64,000 bases of DNA from an uncultured Nitrospira sp. Lineage in GTDB: Bacteria; Nitrospirota; Nitrospiria; Nitrospirales; Nitrospiraceae. Below, one piece after another: positions 3,164-63,898 of this stretch; the first letter of the stretch is position 1; each line of letters begins with the position of its first letter. Location of the stretch: positions 1-64,000 of the forward strand of contig CABVRV010000002.1 in NCBI GenBank assembly GCA_902500755.1, in the 5' to 3' direction. Made by a program: the position numbers and the translations under genes. The notes under the pieces are model-generated. The model was given only the letters and a program-made list of their open reading frames with translations, ran no database searches and was not told the origin of the DNA.

Positions 3164-3287
3164 CTTTTTGTCTCGTCCTGACACCGAGATACACCGTTCC
3201 CGGTACGTCGAACGGGCTGAGATCTGCACCGCCGTGAACGGTCATCGTCAATCGATCAGTGCAGGGTTAATAGCATTCCACCCTTTC

Positions 3288-3590
3288 ATGAACAACTGGC
3301 TGCTGAACGATGGCACACACTCTCGCATGGAACAACTGGCCAATGTCGGCAGCGATGTGGCGTGGGGGGGGAAGGATCAACACCGCTGCGAACAGGCTTT
3401 CGACCGAGCCGTGAAACTTCTGGACCTGCCGATTGCGGACGAGCGATGGAAACGCTGCCTCAAGGAACTGACCGGTGCGCGGGAAGTGCTGTGCAACGCG
3501 ATGTTCGGCAGAACAACTTACGGCAGTGATTTAGCGTCTCTCGATCATTATTTCTGTCATTTCGCCATGGCCACCAGAGCTGGTCGGTGA
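3288..3590 (+). CDS. Small hypothetical protein, copy 2 of a paralogous pair
   Basis: A 100-residue protein of unknown function and a paralogue of the ORF at 60-380. I start it at the ATG at 3288 because that codon and the following residues align with the start of copy 1; an in-frame TTG further upstream (3168) is less likely. Copy 2 has a short internal deletion relative to copy 1 after the NVGSDVA motif, where a run of seven G bases occurs, which is a possible slippage site. The frame stays open to a shared C-terminus. No membrane segment or known domain. Confidence 0.55.
   Translation: MNNWLLNDGTHSRMEQLANVGSDVAWGGKDQHRCEQAFDRAVKLLDLPIADERWKRCLKELTGAREVLCNAMFGRTTYGSDLASLDHYFCHFAMATRAGR
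3511..3545 (+). repeat. 35-bp exact repeat, copy 2 (pair at 301-335)
   Basis: Identical to 301-335 base for base. It lies within the 3' end of the second paralogous small ORF. Confidence 0.75.
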
Positions 3591-3955
3591 TCAGAGCATG
3601 ATGGGCAGCGCACGGAACAAGACCTGACCCTGACTTTACTCACGACGACGACTCTTGATCGACGCCACTTGCCGCGGTTTGAAGCTTGCGGCTGCACGCC
3701 GAATTCGAGGGACCCCCCCTCATCATGGATGAAGCACCGTCTCCATCACTGCCGCGATGGTGACGTTCGTAGTATACAGACTCTCGACCCCTCTTCTTCC
3801 GCCTTCATTTAGTAAACTCATAGTAATCCTAAAACGTTGTAAATCTTGACAAATCATAAATATCAATACTAGGTATAATTGACTCTTTTCAACTATCGAT
3901 AGATTTCATTAAGATGCAAGGCCTCCGACATCGGCCACCATCAAGGAGTCCCATT
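3591..3955 (+). promoter_or_regulatory. Intergenic region with AT-rich putative promoter before the HEPN-like pair
   Basis: These 365 bases hold no gene I can support. From about 3800 the base composition turns markedly AT-rich. A TTGACA lies at 3846-3851 and a perfect TATAAT at 3874-3879, but they are 22 bases apart, too far for one standard sigma-70 promoter, so the -10 may use a weaker -35. AAGGAG at 3943-3948 is the ribosome site of the gene starting at 3956. The abrupt composition change suggests the left edge of an acquired segment. Confidence 0.35.
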
Positions 3956-4567
3956 ATGGCTTCTGGCAAGGCAGAGCAGACAGACAACCCCAGTAACGAA
4001 ATTAAGGCCATGGATTCGACTTTTAAGGCTCTCGTTAATCTGAAGCCTGATGAACAAAGGCGAGTACTTGCGTGGTTACCCCAAAAGCTAAATTTAATAC
4101 CTGCAGAGCGGCCACCAACAGGAGGAGGGCCATTAGCTGGAGCATCGACGGCTTCAGGAGCACACGCTTTAACGCTAAAAGGTGAACCTGGCAGTCGAGA
4201 GCATGCAAAAACATTTATGAGCCAGAAGAAACCTGGCGACTTCCAAGAGAGAGTTGCATGTCTGGCGTACTATCTCACTCATTATATGAATACACCCACA
4301 TTTAAGACCCGAGATATTACGACGATGAATAGTCTTGCCGGACAACCAAACCTGTCGAACCCCGCGGTCTTCGTGAGTAACTCTGTTCGATCACAATACC
4401 TGTCTTCTGCAGGAAAAGGGCAACAACAAATTACTTCAAGGGGAGAAGCGGTCGTGGACGCCCTACCCGATAGAGAGAAAGTGAAGCAAGCTATTGAGGA
4501 TCACAAACACTCCGGGCGAAGGAAGAAAAGAAAAGGGAAGAAGTCCAAAGCTAAGGCAGGGAACTAA
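3956..4567 (+). CDS. Basic-tailed hypothetical protein, first gene of a putative two-gene module
   Basis: A 203-residue protein that I cannot assign to a named family. The ATG at 3956 is chosen because AAGGAG lies seven bases upstream. The N-terminal half is polar with a Gly/Ala/Ser-rich linker. A middle domain (about residues 80-170) contains the ERVACLAYYLTHY helix and a KTRDIT...NPAVFVSNSVRSQYL stretch that reads like a winged-helix-type nucleic-acid-binding fold. The last 20 residues are almost all Lys, Arg and Gly, suited to DNA or RNA contact. It is separated from the next gene by two bases, so the products are probably made in concert. Codon and base composition are more AT-rich than in neighbouring genes. 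Confidence 0.7.
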   Translation: MASGKAEQTDNPSNEIKAMDSTFKALVNLKPDEQRRVLAWLPQKLNLIPAERPPTGGGPLAGASTASGAHALTLKGEPGSREHAKTFMSQKKPGDFQERVACLAYYLTHYMNTPTFKTRDITTMNSLAGQPNLSNPAVFVSNSVRSQYLSSAGKGQQQITSRGEAVVDALPDREKVKQAIEDHKHSGRRKKRKGKKSKAKAGN

Positions 4568-4569
4568 AG

Positions 4570-5340
4570 GTGCTTCAGCAAATACGGGACGGGCTAGCCA
4601 AACAACTACCTACGTTACTTGTAGATGAATTGCTCGCGGCATACGTCGAAACGAAGAAAGAGTTTTATCTTGGTGGTCTTCGATTAAGTGCCGTTGAAGG
4701 TGGACGATTCTCCGAAGCTGCATTTCGTATTCTTCAATACCAGACCACTAGTAAGTTCACTCCCCTCAACAAGAAGCTCGATACAGACCGTACAATTCTT
4801 GACCTCGCGAATCTGCAATCGGGTTCTTATCCAGATTCACTCCGTCTTCACATTCCTAGGGCGTTGCGCGTTGTATATGATGTTCGGAATAACCGAGACG
4901 CTGCTCATCTGGCCGACGGAATTGACCCGAATTTACAGGACGCAACGCTTGTTATATCTGTTTTGGATTGGGTTCTCGCTGAGCTGGTACGTCTGCACCA
5001 CTCCGTGAAGGCTGATGAAGCACAGTCTATAGTCCAGAACCTCGTCAGTCGCCAGGCACCGGCAGTTCAGGATTTCAATGGATTCTTGAAGGTCTTAAAT
5101 CCAGGCCTCCTGGCTGGTGACTACTGCCTTCTTCTTCTCTATCAGAGAGGATCGTTGGGTGCAACCTTAGCGGAACTCTCCAATTGGGTGCGACCTAAAA
5201 TGAGAAGTAATCTCAGTCAAACACTCAATCGTTTAATAGATGGCAAATCCTTTGTCCACGTCGATTCTCAGGGTAAGTTCTTTGTGACTGCTACTGGTCT
5301 CAAGGAGGTGGAGAATCGCGGGCTATATAAGCTCCCATAG
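4570..5340 (+). CDS. Putative HEPN-like (R-x6-H) protein with C-terminal winged helix
   Basis: A 256-residue protein with a GTG start two bases after the preceding stop, indicating translational coupling. Residues about 10-165 look all-helical. At residues 106-113 it carries R-N-N-R-D-A-A-H, which fits the R(X4-6)H consensus of HEPN ribonucleases including the polar residue after the Arg. Residues about 180-250 (GDYCLLLLYQ ... LSQTLNRLIDGK) look like a winged helix. HEPN proteins are common toxins or effectors in abortive-infection and toxin-antitoxin systems, so a defence role together with the 3956 product is plausible. This is inference from one motif; a non-enzymatic scaffold is possible. 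Confidence 0.6.
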   Translation: MLQQIRDGLAKQLPTLLVDELLAAYVETKKEFYLGGLRLSAVEGGRFSEAAFRILQYQTTSKFTPLNKKLDTDRTILDLANLQSGSYPDSLRLHIPRALRVVYDVRNNRDAAHLADGIDPNLQDATLVISVLDWVLAELVRLHHSVKADEAQSIVQNLVSRQAPAVQDFNGFLKVLNPGLLAGDYCLLLLYQRGSLGATLAELSNWVRPKMRSNLSQTLNRLIDGKSFVHVDSQGKFFVTATGLKEVENRGLYKLP

Positions 5341-5530
5341 GATAATAGCTCTACGCGTTCCCATCGTTTCCTAGCAGACCGAGTTGTCAGCCGTGTGCGC
5401 CCTGAGACCAGCCTGCTGAGAAAACTGGCTAGTCAAACGAGATTTTTATCTCTTAGATGAACGAGGGTCTATGGATTTTCACGGAGCCCACCTCTAACCA
5501 CCCGCCTTTAGGTCATGCAATCTAACTCAT

Positions 5531-5725
5531 CTCGAAGGGTTCTGGTCGATTGACATACCCACTTGGAATAATGTGTCCCTGAATGTCAGCACACACTGGA
5601 TCAATCAGGCTACAAGAACAAGAATCCTCTCTTCTTTCTGAGAGAGAAGTGATCGGTACCATTGATAGGAAGGCGGAGCATTGATCAGTCATGGATCTGA
5701 AGGTAGAGGATCAGCGGACCGCCCC
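5531..5725 (+). pseudogene. Duplicated leader and 5' end of the PilZ gene (decayed copy)
   Basis: This segment closely matches 6689-6890: both contain CTCGAAGGG, a GATAATG or AATAATG box, TGGATCAATCAGGCTACAAG, and the codons for MDLKVE-x-QRTAP. After the Pro codon the two sequences diverge abruptly and the copy encodes no PilZ domain. In the copy the frame upstream of the shared ATG is closed by a TGA, which supports the ATG (at 6855 in the intact gene) as the true start. It appears to be a 3'-truncated duplication that kept promoter and translation start. Confidence 0.7.
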
Positions 5726-6323
5726 CATGATTGAAGGTCAGATCTCGAACCGTGCATCAGAACGCAGGTGTTATATTGCGCTCCGCGCAAACCTGCAGAT
5801 GCCATCAACCTCTTGGCTCACGAACCCAACAAACCAAGCCTCCCCTACCATCTCACTCACCGCTACCGCCCTTCGTGTTAGTTATAATCCCAGACCGTGA
5901 GACGACATTAGATCAGCTTAGCCATCACACTCGCGTCCCTCCGCTCCGTTCTACTTCTTCTGGAAGGATGCCCCTCACACGTCGATGTACATGGCCTTTC
6001 GGAATAACGCGGAAGGAAGGTCCTGCAGGGTAACACCCATTACCAGACTGCGTCGAGCGCAACGACCAGACTGTTCAGAACCTGACCTGCCAAGCCCTTG
6101 CCACCGCGTGGGGATTCCACTCATCCGGGCAGCTTGAGATTCCCTCACACCTGGCATACACAGCCAGCTAAAACATCCCCGTGCCCTCTATAATCATTGA
6201 CCAGCACATGATTCACCACTCGCTCTCCTTCTACTTCATGAAAGGTTCTTCACCGAGTTCTCATTCGTTCTTCATCTTTCTCCTGTATGGTTGCCCTATT
6301 GGAAACAATGAAAGAGGCACGGA

Positions 6324-6407: not shown

Positions 6408-6688
6408 CCATAGAGAGGGTCAGGTAATTCAATGGCCCTTCTATGACAACCTAGGGACTGCCCCGGTTGTGCAGCCCGGGACGGTTCCATAGGTTCTCAC
6501 TCTTCTTGCCCCTGAAACTTGCAAGCAGCTTGCAGCACAGGCATCGAAGCCTGAACGGTTAAGGGCGCATTGCTTTCAGCCCTGCTATCAGGGAACGTCG
6601 GTACGTCCCACCTGATTAATCAATCTTTCAAATGGTTCCGCTCAACGCGCCACAGGCGGGAGTCGATCCTTCATGAGAATTGCTCCGC

Positions 6689-6890
6689 TCGAAGGGCTGT
6701 TGCCGATGAACATCTCTACGCGGGATAATGCGTCCCTGAACAAACAACACATACTGGATCAATCAGGCTACAAGAACAAGAACCCTCTCCCCTGTTTCTT
6801 TTTGATGGGAAAGTGATCGAGACCATTGATGGGAAAGCGGAGCGTCGACTAGTCATGGATCTCAAGGTAGAGGAACAGCGGACTGCCCCA
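6689..6890 (+). repeat. Parent copy of the duplicated PilZ leader
   Basis: Promoter-proximal region and first codons of the PilZ gene, matched by 5531-5725. Similarity is strong through the non-coding leader, which implies that the leader itself was copied and has not fully decayed. Confidence 0.7.
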
Positions 6891-7862: not shown

Positions 7863-8315
7863 ATGGCTATTTTCCGCGATCGTCCTTATGGCCAGTACAA
7901 TTTTCTGATCGACCTTGGCGACGGAGACACCCAAGGCCCGCAGGCGGGCTTCCAGGAGGTGAGCGGCATTGGCATGGAAGCCGTGGTAATCGAGTACCGC
8001 AACGGCAACTCCAAGGAAAATACTGTGATGAAGCTGACCGGCTTGAACCGGGTTAGCGATGTCACACTGAAACGAGGGATCATCGGCTCGCTGAATCTCT
8101 ATACATGGCTTGACCAGATCCGCAACGGCGACCAGAACGCCATGCGAACGGTGACCATTCAATTACAAAGTGAAGATCACAGCAACGTGGTTCAGACATG
8201 GAAGCTCTTACGGGCACGCATCGTCAAGCATACGAGCGGTCCGCTCAATGCAAAAGGGACCGACGTCGCGATGGAAGAAATGGTGTTAGCCTACGAGCGC
8301 CTGGAAATGGAGTAG
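7863..8315 (+). CDS. Phage tail tube-like protein (T4 gp19 / contractile-injection tube family), copy A
   Basis: A 150-residue protein of the family that forms the inner tube of phage tails and extracellular contractile injection systems (Afp1/Pvc1-like). Typical features are the N-terminal DRPYGQYNFLIDLGDG, the GFQEVSGIGMEAVVIEYRNG strand pair, the LKRGIIGS...LYTWLDQIRNG motif, and the C-terminal MEEMVLAYERLEME. The start is supported by AAGGAGAGGAGAG upstream. Length is normal for the family. No sheath, baseplate, spike or ATPase genes are in the window, so it would be an orphan or act with a distant locus. Confidence 0.85.
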   Translation: MAIFRDRPYGQYNFLIDLGDGDTQGPQAGFQEVSGIGMEAVVIEYRNGNSKENTVMKLTGLNRVSDVTLKRGIIGSLNLYTWLDQIRNGDQNAMRTVTIQLQSEDHSNVVQTWKLLRARIVKHTSGPLNAKGTDVAMEEMVLAYERLEME

Positions 8316-8347
8316 GTTCGAGCTTTTTAGTTTGGAGTAAAGACAGT

Positions 8348-8794
8348 ATGGCCGTCATCAGTGAACGACCCTATAAGAACTCGAACTTTCTCGTTGATCT
8401 TGGACGAGGAGACAGCCGTTCTCTGCTTGCGGGCTTTGCCGAAGTTATTTTTCCAGATTTTATGGTTGGCCAACCTAAGGGCGATCAACATCCTCAGCCT
8501 ATCGAACAAGCTGAAGTCATTGCTGTCAATCGTCTTGTCCTCAAGCGAGGGGTGATGGGATCTCTGGATCTCTATGCCTGGTGGGATGAGGCTCGGAAGG
8601 GCAAAGCCTCTCGACCGCGCACCGTGAAGGTTGAACTTCTGGGGGAGGACCAGTCAACAGTGGTGCTGACCTGGCGCTTCGACAATGTTCGTCCGGTGGG
8701 TCTTTGTTACTCACCCTTGCGTGCGATGGAAGGGGGCATCCTCATGGAGACTCTTATCTTGGAGTTTGACAGGATGGAGATGTTAGAAGGGTGA
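8348..8794 (+). CDS. Phage tail tube-like protein, copy B (divergent)
   Basis: A 148-residue paralogue of the preceding gene, with the same N-terminal ERPYKNSNFLVDLGRGD, the VLKRGVMGSLDLYAWWDEARKG motif and the closing METLILEFDRMEM. The central segment after GFAEV is quite different (FPDFMVGQPKGDQHPQP) and lacks the usual SGIGME strand, so this copy may be a cap or initiator or a tube variant, as in injection systems that encode several tube paralogues. I start it at the ATG at 8348, 32 bases after the first copy stops; GGAG lies 11 bases upstream. Confidence 0.8.
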   Translation: MAVISERPYKNSNFLVDLGRGDSRSLLAGFAEVIFPDFMVGQPKGDQHPQPIEQAEVIAVNRLVLKRGVMGSLDLYAWWDEARKGKASRPRTVKVELLGEDQSTVVLTWRFDNVRPVGLCYSPLRAMEGGILMETLILEFDRMEMLEG

Positions 8795-63674: not shown

Positions 63675-63715
63675 GAAAACCTCCCTTTGACTCGAAGGGT
63701 GTCGATAATCCCGGC

Positions 63716-63885
63716 AGTTGGGTCTCCTGACTTGCGGATCGTCGTGTTCTCTGCGCCTTCCCATGTGCCGAGGCACACAGTGGCGTCAGGCAGAGTCACT
63801 CCCCGCTTACAGTGGCGGCACCGTGATGGATTTGCACCATCTTCCCCGTCGCTGACGGTATGACCTTAAAGAATCCCCCCAGAAT
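63716..63885 (-). promoter_or_regulatory. Cobalamin (AdoCbl-type) riboswitch
   Basis: On the minus strand the sequence runs GACGGGGAAGATGGTGCAAATCC, CGGTGCCGCCACTGTAAGCGGGGAG, CTGACGCCACTG, then GGGAAGGCGCAGAGAACACGACGATCCGCAAGTCAGGAGACC. These are the conserved GGTGCAAATCC, GCCACTG B12-box and AGTCAGGAGACC elements of cobalamin riboswitches. It ends about 42 bases before the btuB start, whose ribosome site GGGAGG (63685-63680) could be sequestered. The whole twelve-gene operon would be repressed by cobalamin. Exact ends are approximate. Confidence 0.92.
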
Positions 63886-63898
63886 AAGTGTTGCGCAC

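Follow-up and report, generated by a model that had tools for sequence, protein, structure and literature searches.

A Coupled Gene Pair for Predicted HEPN and Winged-Helix Proteins in an Uncultured Nitrospira: a Likely Member of an Undescribed Toxin-Control or Antiviral Module Family

INTRODUCTION

What is the function of two tightly coupled genes whose products match no named family? This question is raised by positions 3956 to 5340 of a 64,000-nucleotide (nt) stretch from an uncultured Nitrospira sp. (assembly GCA_902500755.1, contig CABVRV010000002.1, positions 1 to 64,000; here called the window). Gene A (3956..4567, + strand; 203 amino acids [aa]) encodes a predicted winged-helix partner, or "hub," protein, and gene B (4570..5340, + strand; 256 aa) encodes a predicted HEPN plus winged-helix protein. 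The open reading frames (ORFs) confirmed the tight coupling and the GTG start of the second gene reported in a preliminary description of this DNA, with only 2 bases (4568-4569) between the two genes on the same strand. Moreover, neither protein matched any family in Pfam, PADLOC (PADLOC-DB 2.0.0), NCBIfam, or PHROGs at E ≤ 10, in line with the statement that neither belongs to a named system. The same description had proposed a HEPN-type defense or toxin-antitoxin (TA) module, a proposal that is partly supported overall: the HEPN signature and the conservation of the pair as a unit were borne out, while strong membership in defense islands was not. Relatives of A adjoin several unrelated predicted toxins elsewhere, so A-B probably represents one form of a toxin-control or antiviral module family that is as yet undescribed.

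RESULTS AND DISCUSSION

Predicted HEPN domain and RNase site of protein B

In its AlphaFold2 (AF2) model (mean predicted local distance difference test score [pLDDT], 90), protein B is predicted to combine a HEPN domain (residues 10 to 145; 4597..5004, + strand) with a MarR-like winged helix (residues 180 to 251; 5107..5322, + strand), the C-terminal winged helix having been anticipated from the sequence. HEPN proteins are recognized by an R-x4-6-H motif with a polar residue (N/D/H) after the arginine, and an Ex3[KR] acidic motif has been described in their helix 2 (Anantharaman et al. 2013, PMC3710099). Protein B carries R106-N107-x5-H113 (4885..4908, + strand), the predicted RNase active site, and E49-x3-R53 (4714..4728, + strand), and its predicted helices (15-33, 45-60, 89-107, and 120-144, with an insert holding helix 72-80) follow the four-helix HEPN layout, with E49 in helix 2, R106 at the end of helix 3, and H113 in the following loop. 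Structural alignment of the model to solved HEPN domains by VIA-align scored 9.9 against 2hsb (root mean square deviation [rmsd], 3.4; 115 aligned), 9.2 against 3o10 (4.9; 122), 8.9 against 3c18 (2.8; 104), and 8.9 against 6tug (3.9; 122), scores that helical bundles can also reach, and Foldseek placed solved HEPN domains at E > 0.001. PDB sequence searches with A and B returned no usable match, the A profile had 0 PDB matches, and matches of A to histone H2B (E ≥ 0.016) and of the B profile to Nup192 (E, 0.012) were taken as chance.

Searches with B yielded 2,007 homologues at E ≤ 1e-3, and a profile of divergent members matched 2,743 of the 7,998 candidates scored; the source names of the 120 homologues listed per search were all variants of "hypothetical protein." In an alignment of 277 rows, to which each search contributed its 120 best homologues, a choice that favors close relatives, R106 was kept in 275 rows, N107 in 271, H113 in 277, and E49 in 275 (query counted). 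R53 was present in all 120 best homologues of the direct search and in 30 of 36 loci rows, and its position held T, S, or A in all 120 best rows of the divergent-member search. Thus, the R106-x6-H113 pair noted earlier is present and retained by homologues, and of the proposed HEPN effector, the near-invariant motif stands where published HEPN domains have it, whereas the fold itself is a prediction. The divergent relatives in loci L090 and L091 lack R106 and N107 while keeping R109 and H113; several further small winged-helix-like genes lie beside these two.

The loss of R106 in 2 of the 36 loci rows would suit another explanation, namely, that the HEPN domain is a nontoxic, dimerizing RNA-binding part of a ribonucleoprotein or transcription regulator and that the operon controls other genes; for the MtlR HEPN, such a nontoxic role has been argued (PMC3710099). 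The two DNA-binding-type domains of the pair fit that view, as do the ratios of nonsynonymous to synonymous substitutions in four pairs of related loci from other genomes (0.05 to 0.13 for B and 0.09 to 0.24 for the partner genes), which point to purifying selection on both. Together with the homologue counts of A and B, these ratios also set the gene pair apart from a product of chance. We nevertheless regard it as improbable, since nearly every row retains the active-site motif, the distribution is patchy, and the neighbors of A relatives include RelA/SpoT, AbiEii, and nuclease-type genes.

Conservation of the pair as a unit

A genome scan for B gave 30 loci, 29 of which were placed in a tree and represent nine phyla; the genes in these loci, numbered L below, were called as longest open frames rather than by a gene finder. 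All 30 carry a small partner gene upstream of B on the same strand, ending anywhere from 20 nt inside the B start to 68 nt before it. Of these partners, 19 are A-type, 10 form a second class (in Actinomycetota, Chloroflexota, and Bradyrhizobium), and 1 is beta-type. In the 30 genomes, the A-profile match adjoins B in 19 (contig coordinates compared by hand), with only 2 matches elsewhere. Five further B loci from the window's phylum also have the small upstream gene, which is missing from a haloarchaeal plasmid homologue of B. The expectation that the pair would be conserved as a unit in defense islands therefore held for the unit, with a partner in 30/30 loci, and only faintly for the islands, defense neighbors being weakly enriched. 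In locus L021 (8004-8771), the Symbioplanes B homologue is broken by an in-frame stop, while the upstream A frame is open.

Profile comparison by hhalign joined A with the L009/L013/L092 partner type (99.3). That the partner classes all go back to a single origin is not demonstrated: hhalign did not join A with the actinobacterial/Bradyrhizobium type (0.5). Weak A-profile matches were seen in L015 (E, 8e-4), L012 (E, 0.015), and L006 (E, 2e-6).

Protein A itself (AF2 model; mean pLDDT, 86) is predicted to begin with a helical hairpin (residues 12 to 44, helices 12-27 and 31-44; 3989..4087, + strand) and, after a poorly defined linker, to form a winged helix (residues 93 to 170; 4232..4465, + strand). 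The basic tail already remarked upon is present in the sequence as a Lys/Arg-rich stretch (residues 186 to 203, RRKKRKGKKSKAKAGN; 4511..4564, + strand). A total of 153 homologues were found at E ≤ 1e-3, and among the 120 relatives listed, the source names were variants of "hypothetical protein," with the single exception of a "surface protein."

These architectures bear on what A does to B. One possibility is that A is a sensor-activator: a resting A-B complex would sit on DNA, and foreign or damaged DNA recognized by the two winged helices would switch on the predicted HEPN RNase, causing abortive infection. Both proteins have predicted winged helices toward their C termini, the partners seem to combine N-terminal modules with winged helices in mosaic fashion, and inspection by eye showed one more small gene resembling a partner in 7/30 loci, all of which would suit a sensor, whereas the upstream position and small size of A are also typical of antitoxins. 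We consider the sensor-activator role rather unlikely and rank above it an antitoxin role of A, to which we give an even chance.

Relatives of protein A beside other effector-type genes

The A profile matched 13 of 396 genomes in the window's phylum, 6 of 294 in Planctomycetota (the phylum of L003), 13 of 297 in Acidobacteriota (that of L008), and 6 of 296 in Actinomycetota (that of L016). From the 38 A-profile genomes, the centers G000, G060, G065, and G073 were set aside, and the neighbor gene was read in 31 of 34 (G1018, G1250, and G1099 are not among the 31). A B-like HEPN-winged-helix gene was the neighbor in five of these genomes (one truncated), ParA plus RelA/SpoT genes in five, and a gene of a type with the motif YRNYxHP in five; pP_pnuc-type genes occurred in three, DUF4145-type genes in two (one upstream of A), AbiEii-type genes in two, and a winged-helix-HEPN gene with the motif RNxxAHPS, a gene for a 281-aa protein, and an upstream PNP_UDP_1 gene (weak A match) in one each. 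The remainder had a symporter gene (three) or no clear downstream gene (three).

By Pfam, 27 neighbor proteins comprised six matches to RelA_SpoT, three each to AAA_31/CbiA and pP_pnuc_1 (in Pfam, a predicted pPIWI-associating nuclease), two each to AbiEii and DUF4145, and one to PNP_UDP_1, and three more ParA-like neighbors were matched; pP_pnuc_1, DUF4145, and AbiEii were assigned to loci by similarity, as the tally was by member number rather than by name. The pP_pnuc_1, DUF4145, AbiEii, and RelA_SpoT families adjoin relatives of A and are not proteins of the window. AbiEii-type genes were found in L158 and L161, where frames of 443 to 445 aa hold an AbiEii-type nucleotidyltransferase followed by an A-like domain, and the PNP-type gene lies upstream in L156. 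Other neighbors of A relatives are winged-helix-HEPN-like proteins (L086, L150, L151, and L152), proteins of 262 to 291 aa (L153, L159, and L167), and the 281-aa protein of L155, for which no match was found. YRNY[VI]HP proteins of 263 to 278 aa (L145 to L149) look HEPN-like by eye; their R-x3-H spacing falls outside R-x4-6-H, and Pfam gave a weak DUF4145 match in one of three (E, 0.057). These proteins share an N-terminal region of ∼100 residues with those of L153, L159, and L167 (92.6; E, 4.5e-7), B showed no match to the YRNY type (0.2), and the L157/L160/L092 type is clearly related to B (99.6). A profile made from 18 B-linked A proteins and run against 2,277 ORFs found the partner in 32/32 of these loci (18 to 184 bits) and in 0/582 ORFs of 15 control loci.

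A fixed gene order, A-type winged helix, ParA-like ATPase, and RelA/SpoT-type synthetase, recurs in L140 to L144, which span two phyla, and in the IMG/VR contig L122. Among solved structures, the L140 synthetase matches GTP pyrophosphokinases. Given the ParA-like genes, A might instead bind centromeres or the nucleoid as part of ParA-type segregation modules, with B as secondary addiction cargo of such elements. We judge this very improbable: none of the 1,387 ORFs in the 30 B loci has the ParA-type KGGxGK[ST] motif, the RelA/SpoT gene that follows A-ParA in 6/6 loci suggests a conflict module, and on PLSDB plasmids B has one weak archaeal match only.

A bolder reading, to which we give somewhat less than an even chance, is that A belongs to an undescribed, hyperpromiscuous winged-helix hub family with exchangeable N-terminal modules that would drive an entire class of conflict modules in bacteria. 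A-B would be its HEPN-winged-helix output, the two winged helices sensing and the tethered RNase firing; the same hub might control several unrelated HEPN RNase types, ParA plus RelA/SpoT, and pP_pnuc, nucleoside-phosphorylase-type, and AbiEii proteins. Such exchange of neighboring effectors suits a sensor hub equally well.

Proposed mechanism and relation to known systems

On balance, A-B may be a TA or abortive-infection module in which B is the predicted RNase toxin and A likely restrains or triggers it, a reading for which we see matching prospects of being right and wrong. It draws on how closely the two genes are coupled and how regularly they co-occur, on the conserved motif and the patchy distribution, and on the A relatives beside other effector-type genes, and the pair has the gene layout of type II TA systems, with adjacent small genes on one strand, the partner upstream, and a patchy distribution. 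In the proposed sequence of events, A would bind the DNA of its own operon through the winged helix and basic tail and would bind B, keeping the HEPN site inactive or autoregulating the operon. An invader or DNA stress might then disturb A, whose loss or displacement would set B free, with RNA cleavage and cell arrest as the outcome. Across the family as a whole, A-type hubs would control a RelA/SpoT synthetase with its ParA ATPase, other HEPN-type proteins, and pP_pnuc nucleases.

Two sets of results weigh against the TA or abortive-infection reading. Three weak A matches beside a symporter gene, together with the three without a clear downstream gene, are misfits or uninformative. In addition, enrichment of A-B in defense islands is weak. 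Up to four nearest ORFs per locus were taken as neighbors (118 proteins from 30 loci, partner-like extra genes kept), and 15 regions from the same genomes, not matched locus by locus, served as controls. The neighbors hit 117 PADLOC models, of which the 25 listed were mostly methyltransferases, each in at most two proteins; the controls hit one model, in 1/112 ORFs. Among the 25 Pfam families listed of 100 in the neighbors, most belonged to metabolism or transport; DNA methylases and integrases accounted for two each. On these counts, A-B usually stands alone, with at most a slight lean to modification genes, and strong defense-island membership was rejected.

Compared with the HEPN superfamily RNases surveyed by Anantharaman et al. 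(PMC3710099), B has no curated family match and adds a C-terminal winged helix, and its partner is a predicted winged helix rather than an MNT nucleotidyltransferase, ATPase, or restriction gene. HEPN-MNT (HepT/MntA) is likewise a two-gene module with a HEPN protein but differs in the partner; an MNT-type partner was ruled out here, as A is a predicted winged helix without a Pfam match. A further parallel is the Panacea/NetFlax network: in the passages of PMC10440598 consulted, Panacea and helix-turn-helix (HTH) domains are named as hyperpromiscuous antitoxins, and toxSAS nodes and one HEPN node are part of the network. The likeness lies in a single small partner family that adjoins many unrelated toxin types, RelA/SpoT-related and HEPN included; the differences are that no Pfam family matches A, that those passages do not name the A family, and that toxin neutralization by A is putative. 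Among the PubMed Central (PMC) matches listed (titles and abstract openings, outside supplements and subscription journals), there was no description of the A-B pair or the hub or of the A-ParA-RelA/SpoT order, nor did the portions consulted of PMC13092281, PMC12839542, and PMC7159879 describe the pair or the hub.

About two thousand B-family members are known, with an almost invariant predicted RNase site, and neither Pfam nor PADLOC, NCBIfam, or PHROGs has a model for them. Through the A family, many predicted toxin and defense genes become accessible together. If HEPN, RelA/SpoT, nuclease, and AbiEii outputs all answer to one small winged-helix hub, searching for hubs would reveal further modules, and the action of one antitoxin-like fold against unrelated toxins would become directly testable outside the Panacea network.

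Distribution and transfer

Among the 59 near relatives searched, B occurs only in the window's own genome, and it is found in 6 of 396 genomes of the phylum, as expected from the transfer suggested earlier; the A-B module has likely spread by transfer. A tree built from 31 B proteins places the one from the window beside an Acidobacteriota sequence (Shimodaira-Hasegawa-like approximate likelihood ratio test [SH-aLRT], 84; not starred). Phyla in this tree are partly mixed yet clustered, as indicated by 11 changes of phylum label against a minimum of 8 and a shuffle mean of 15.4. The pair is also poorer in guanine plus cytosine (GC) than its surroundings, as described before (0.480 versus 0.544 for the window; 1.1% of 1,385-nt windows are equally low). 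Viral scans, by short peptide patterns only, gave 0 matches in phages and, in viral contigs, 0 for B and 1 for A. Phage cargo was rejected, as these scans found no B in the viral collections searched.

Ten relatives have the PilZ flank without A-B, one of which (L060) ends soon beyond the flank; a methyltransferase or metallo-beta-lactamase (MBL) gene lies within ∼450 nt of the PilZ region in L058, L059, L062, L065, and L066. The right flank of the pair (5531..5727, + strand) is a partial copy of the region before the PilZ gene (6684-6889). On the left side, 3372-3637 repeats 162-427.

Expression signals and flanking features

ATG 3956 is preferred over ATG 3914 as the start of gene A because AAGGAG, a likely ribosome-binding site (3943..3948, + strand), lies 7 nt before it. 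The leader upstream of gene A is AT rich (3760..3930, + strand; GC, 0.36), as had been claimed for a promoter region of its own, but no sigma-70-like site was found at 3600-5600 (shuffles average 1.7), so that the case for such a promoter comes from AT content only. Terminator and operator scans around A-B gave nothing useful. An RNA antitoxin known to Rfam was ruled out, as the only match near the pair is a group II intron D1-D4-2-like fragment on the left flank (3612..3721, − strand; RF01999, 53.3 bits, gathering threshold of 36). No reverse transcriptase ORF was noticed beside this fragment, and positions 3640-3739 match six plasmid records (74% in the five listed).

An unnamed family of proteins of 106 to 140 aa is represented twice (60-380 and 3168-3590, + strand; 76% DNA identity over 266 nt), the two copies flanking a methyltransferase and a metallo-beta-lactamase gene, and relatives occur in 16/39 genomes searched. 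After the PilZ gene, two T4 gp19-like tail-tube genes (7863-8794, + strand) are perhaps part of a contractile injection system. Finally, a cobalamin riboswitch (RF00174, 93 bits) is located at 63700-63893 on the − strand.
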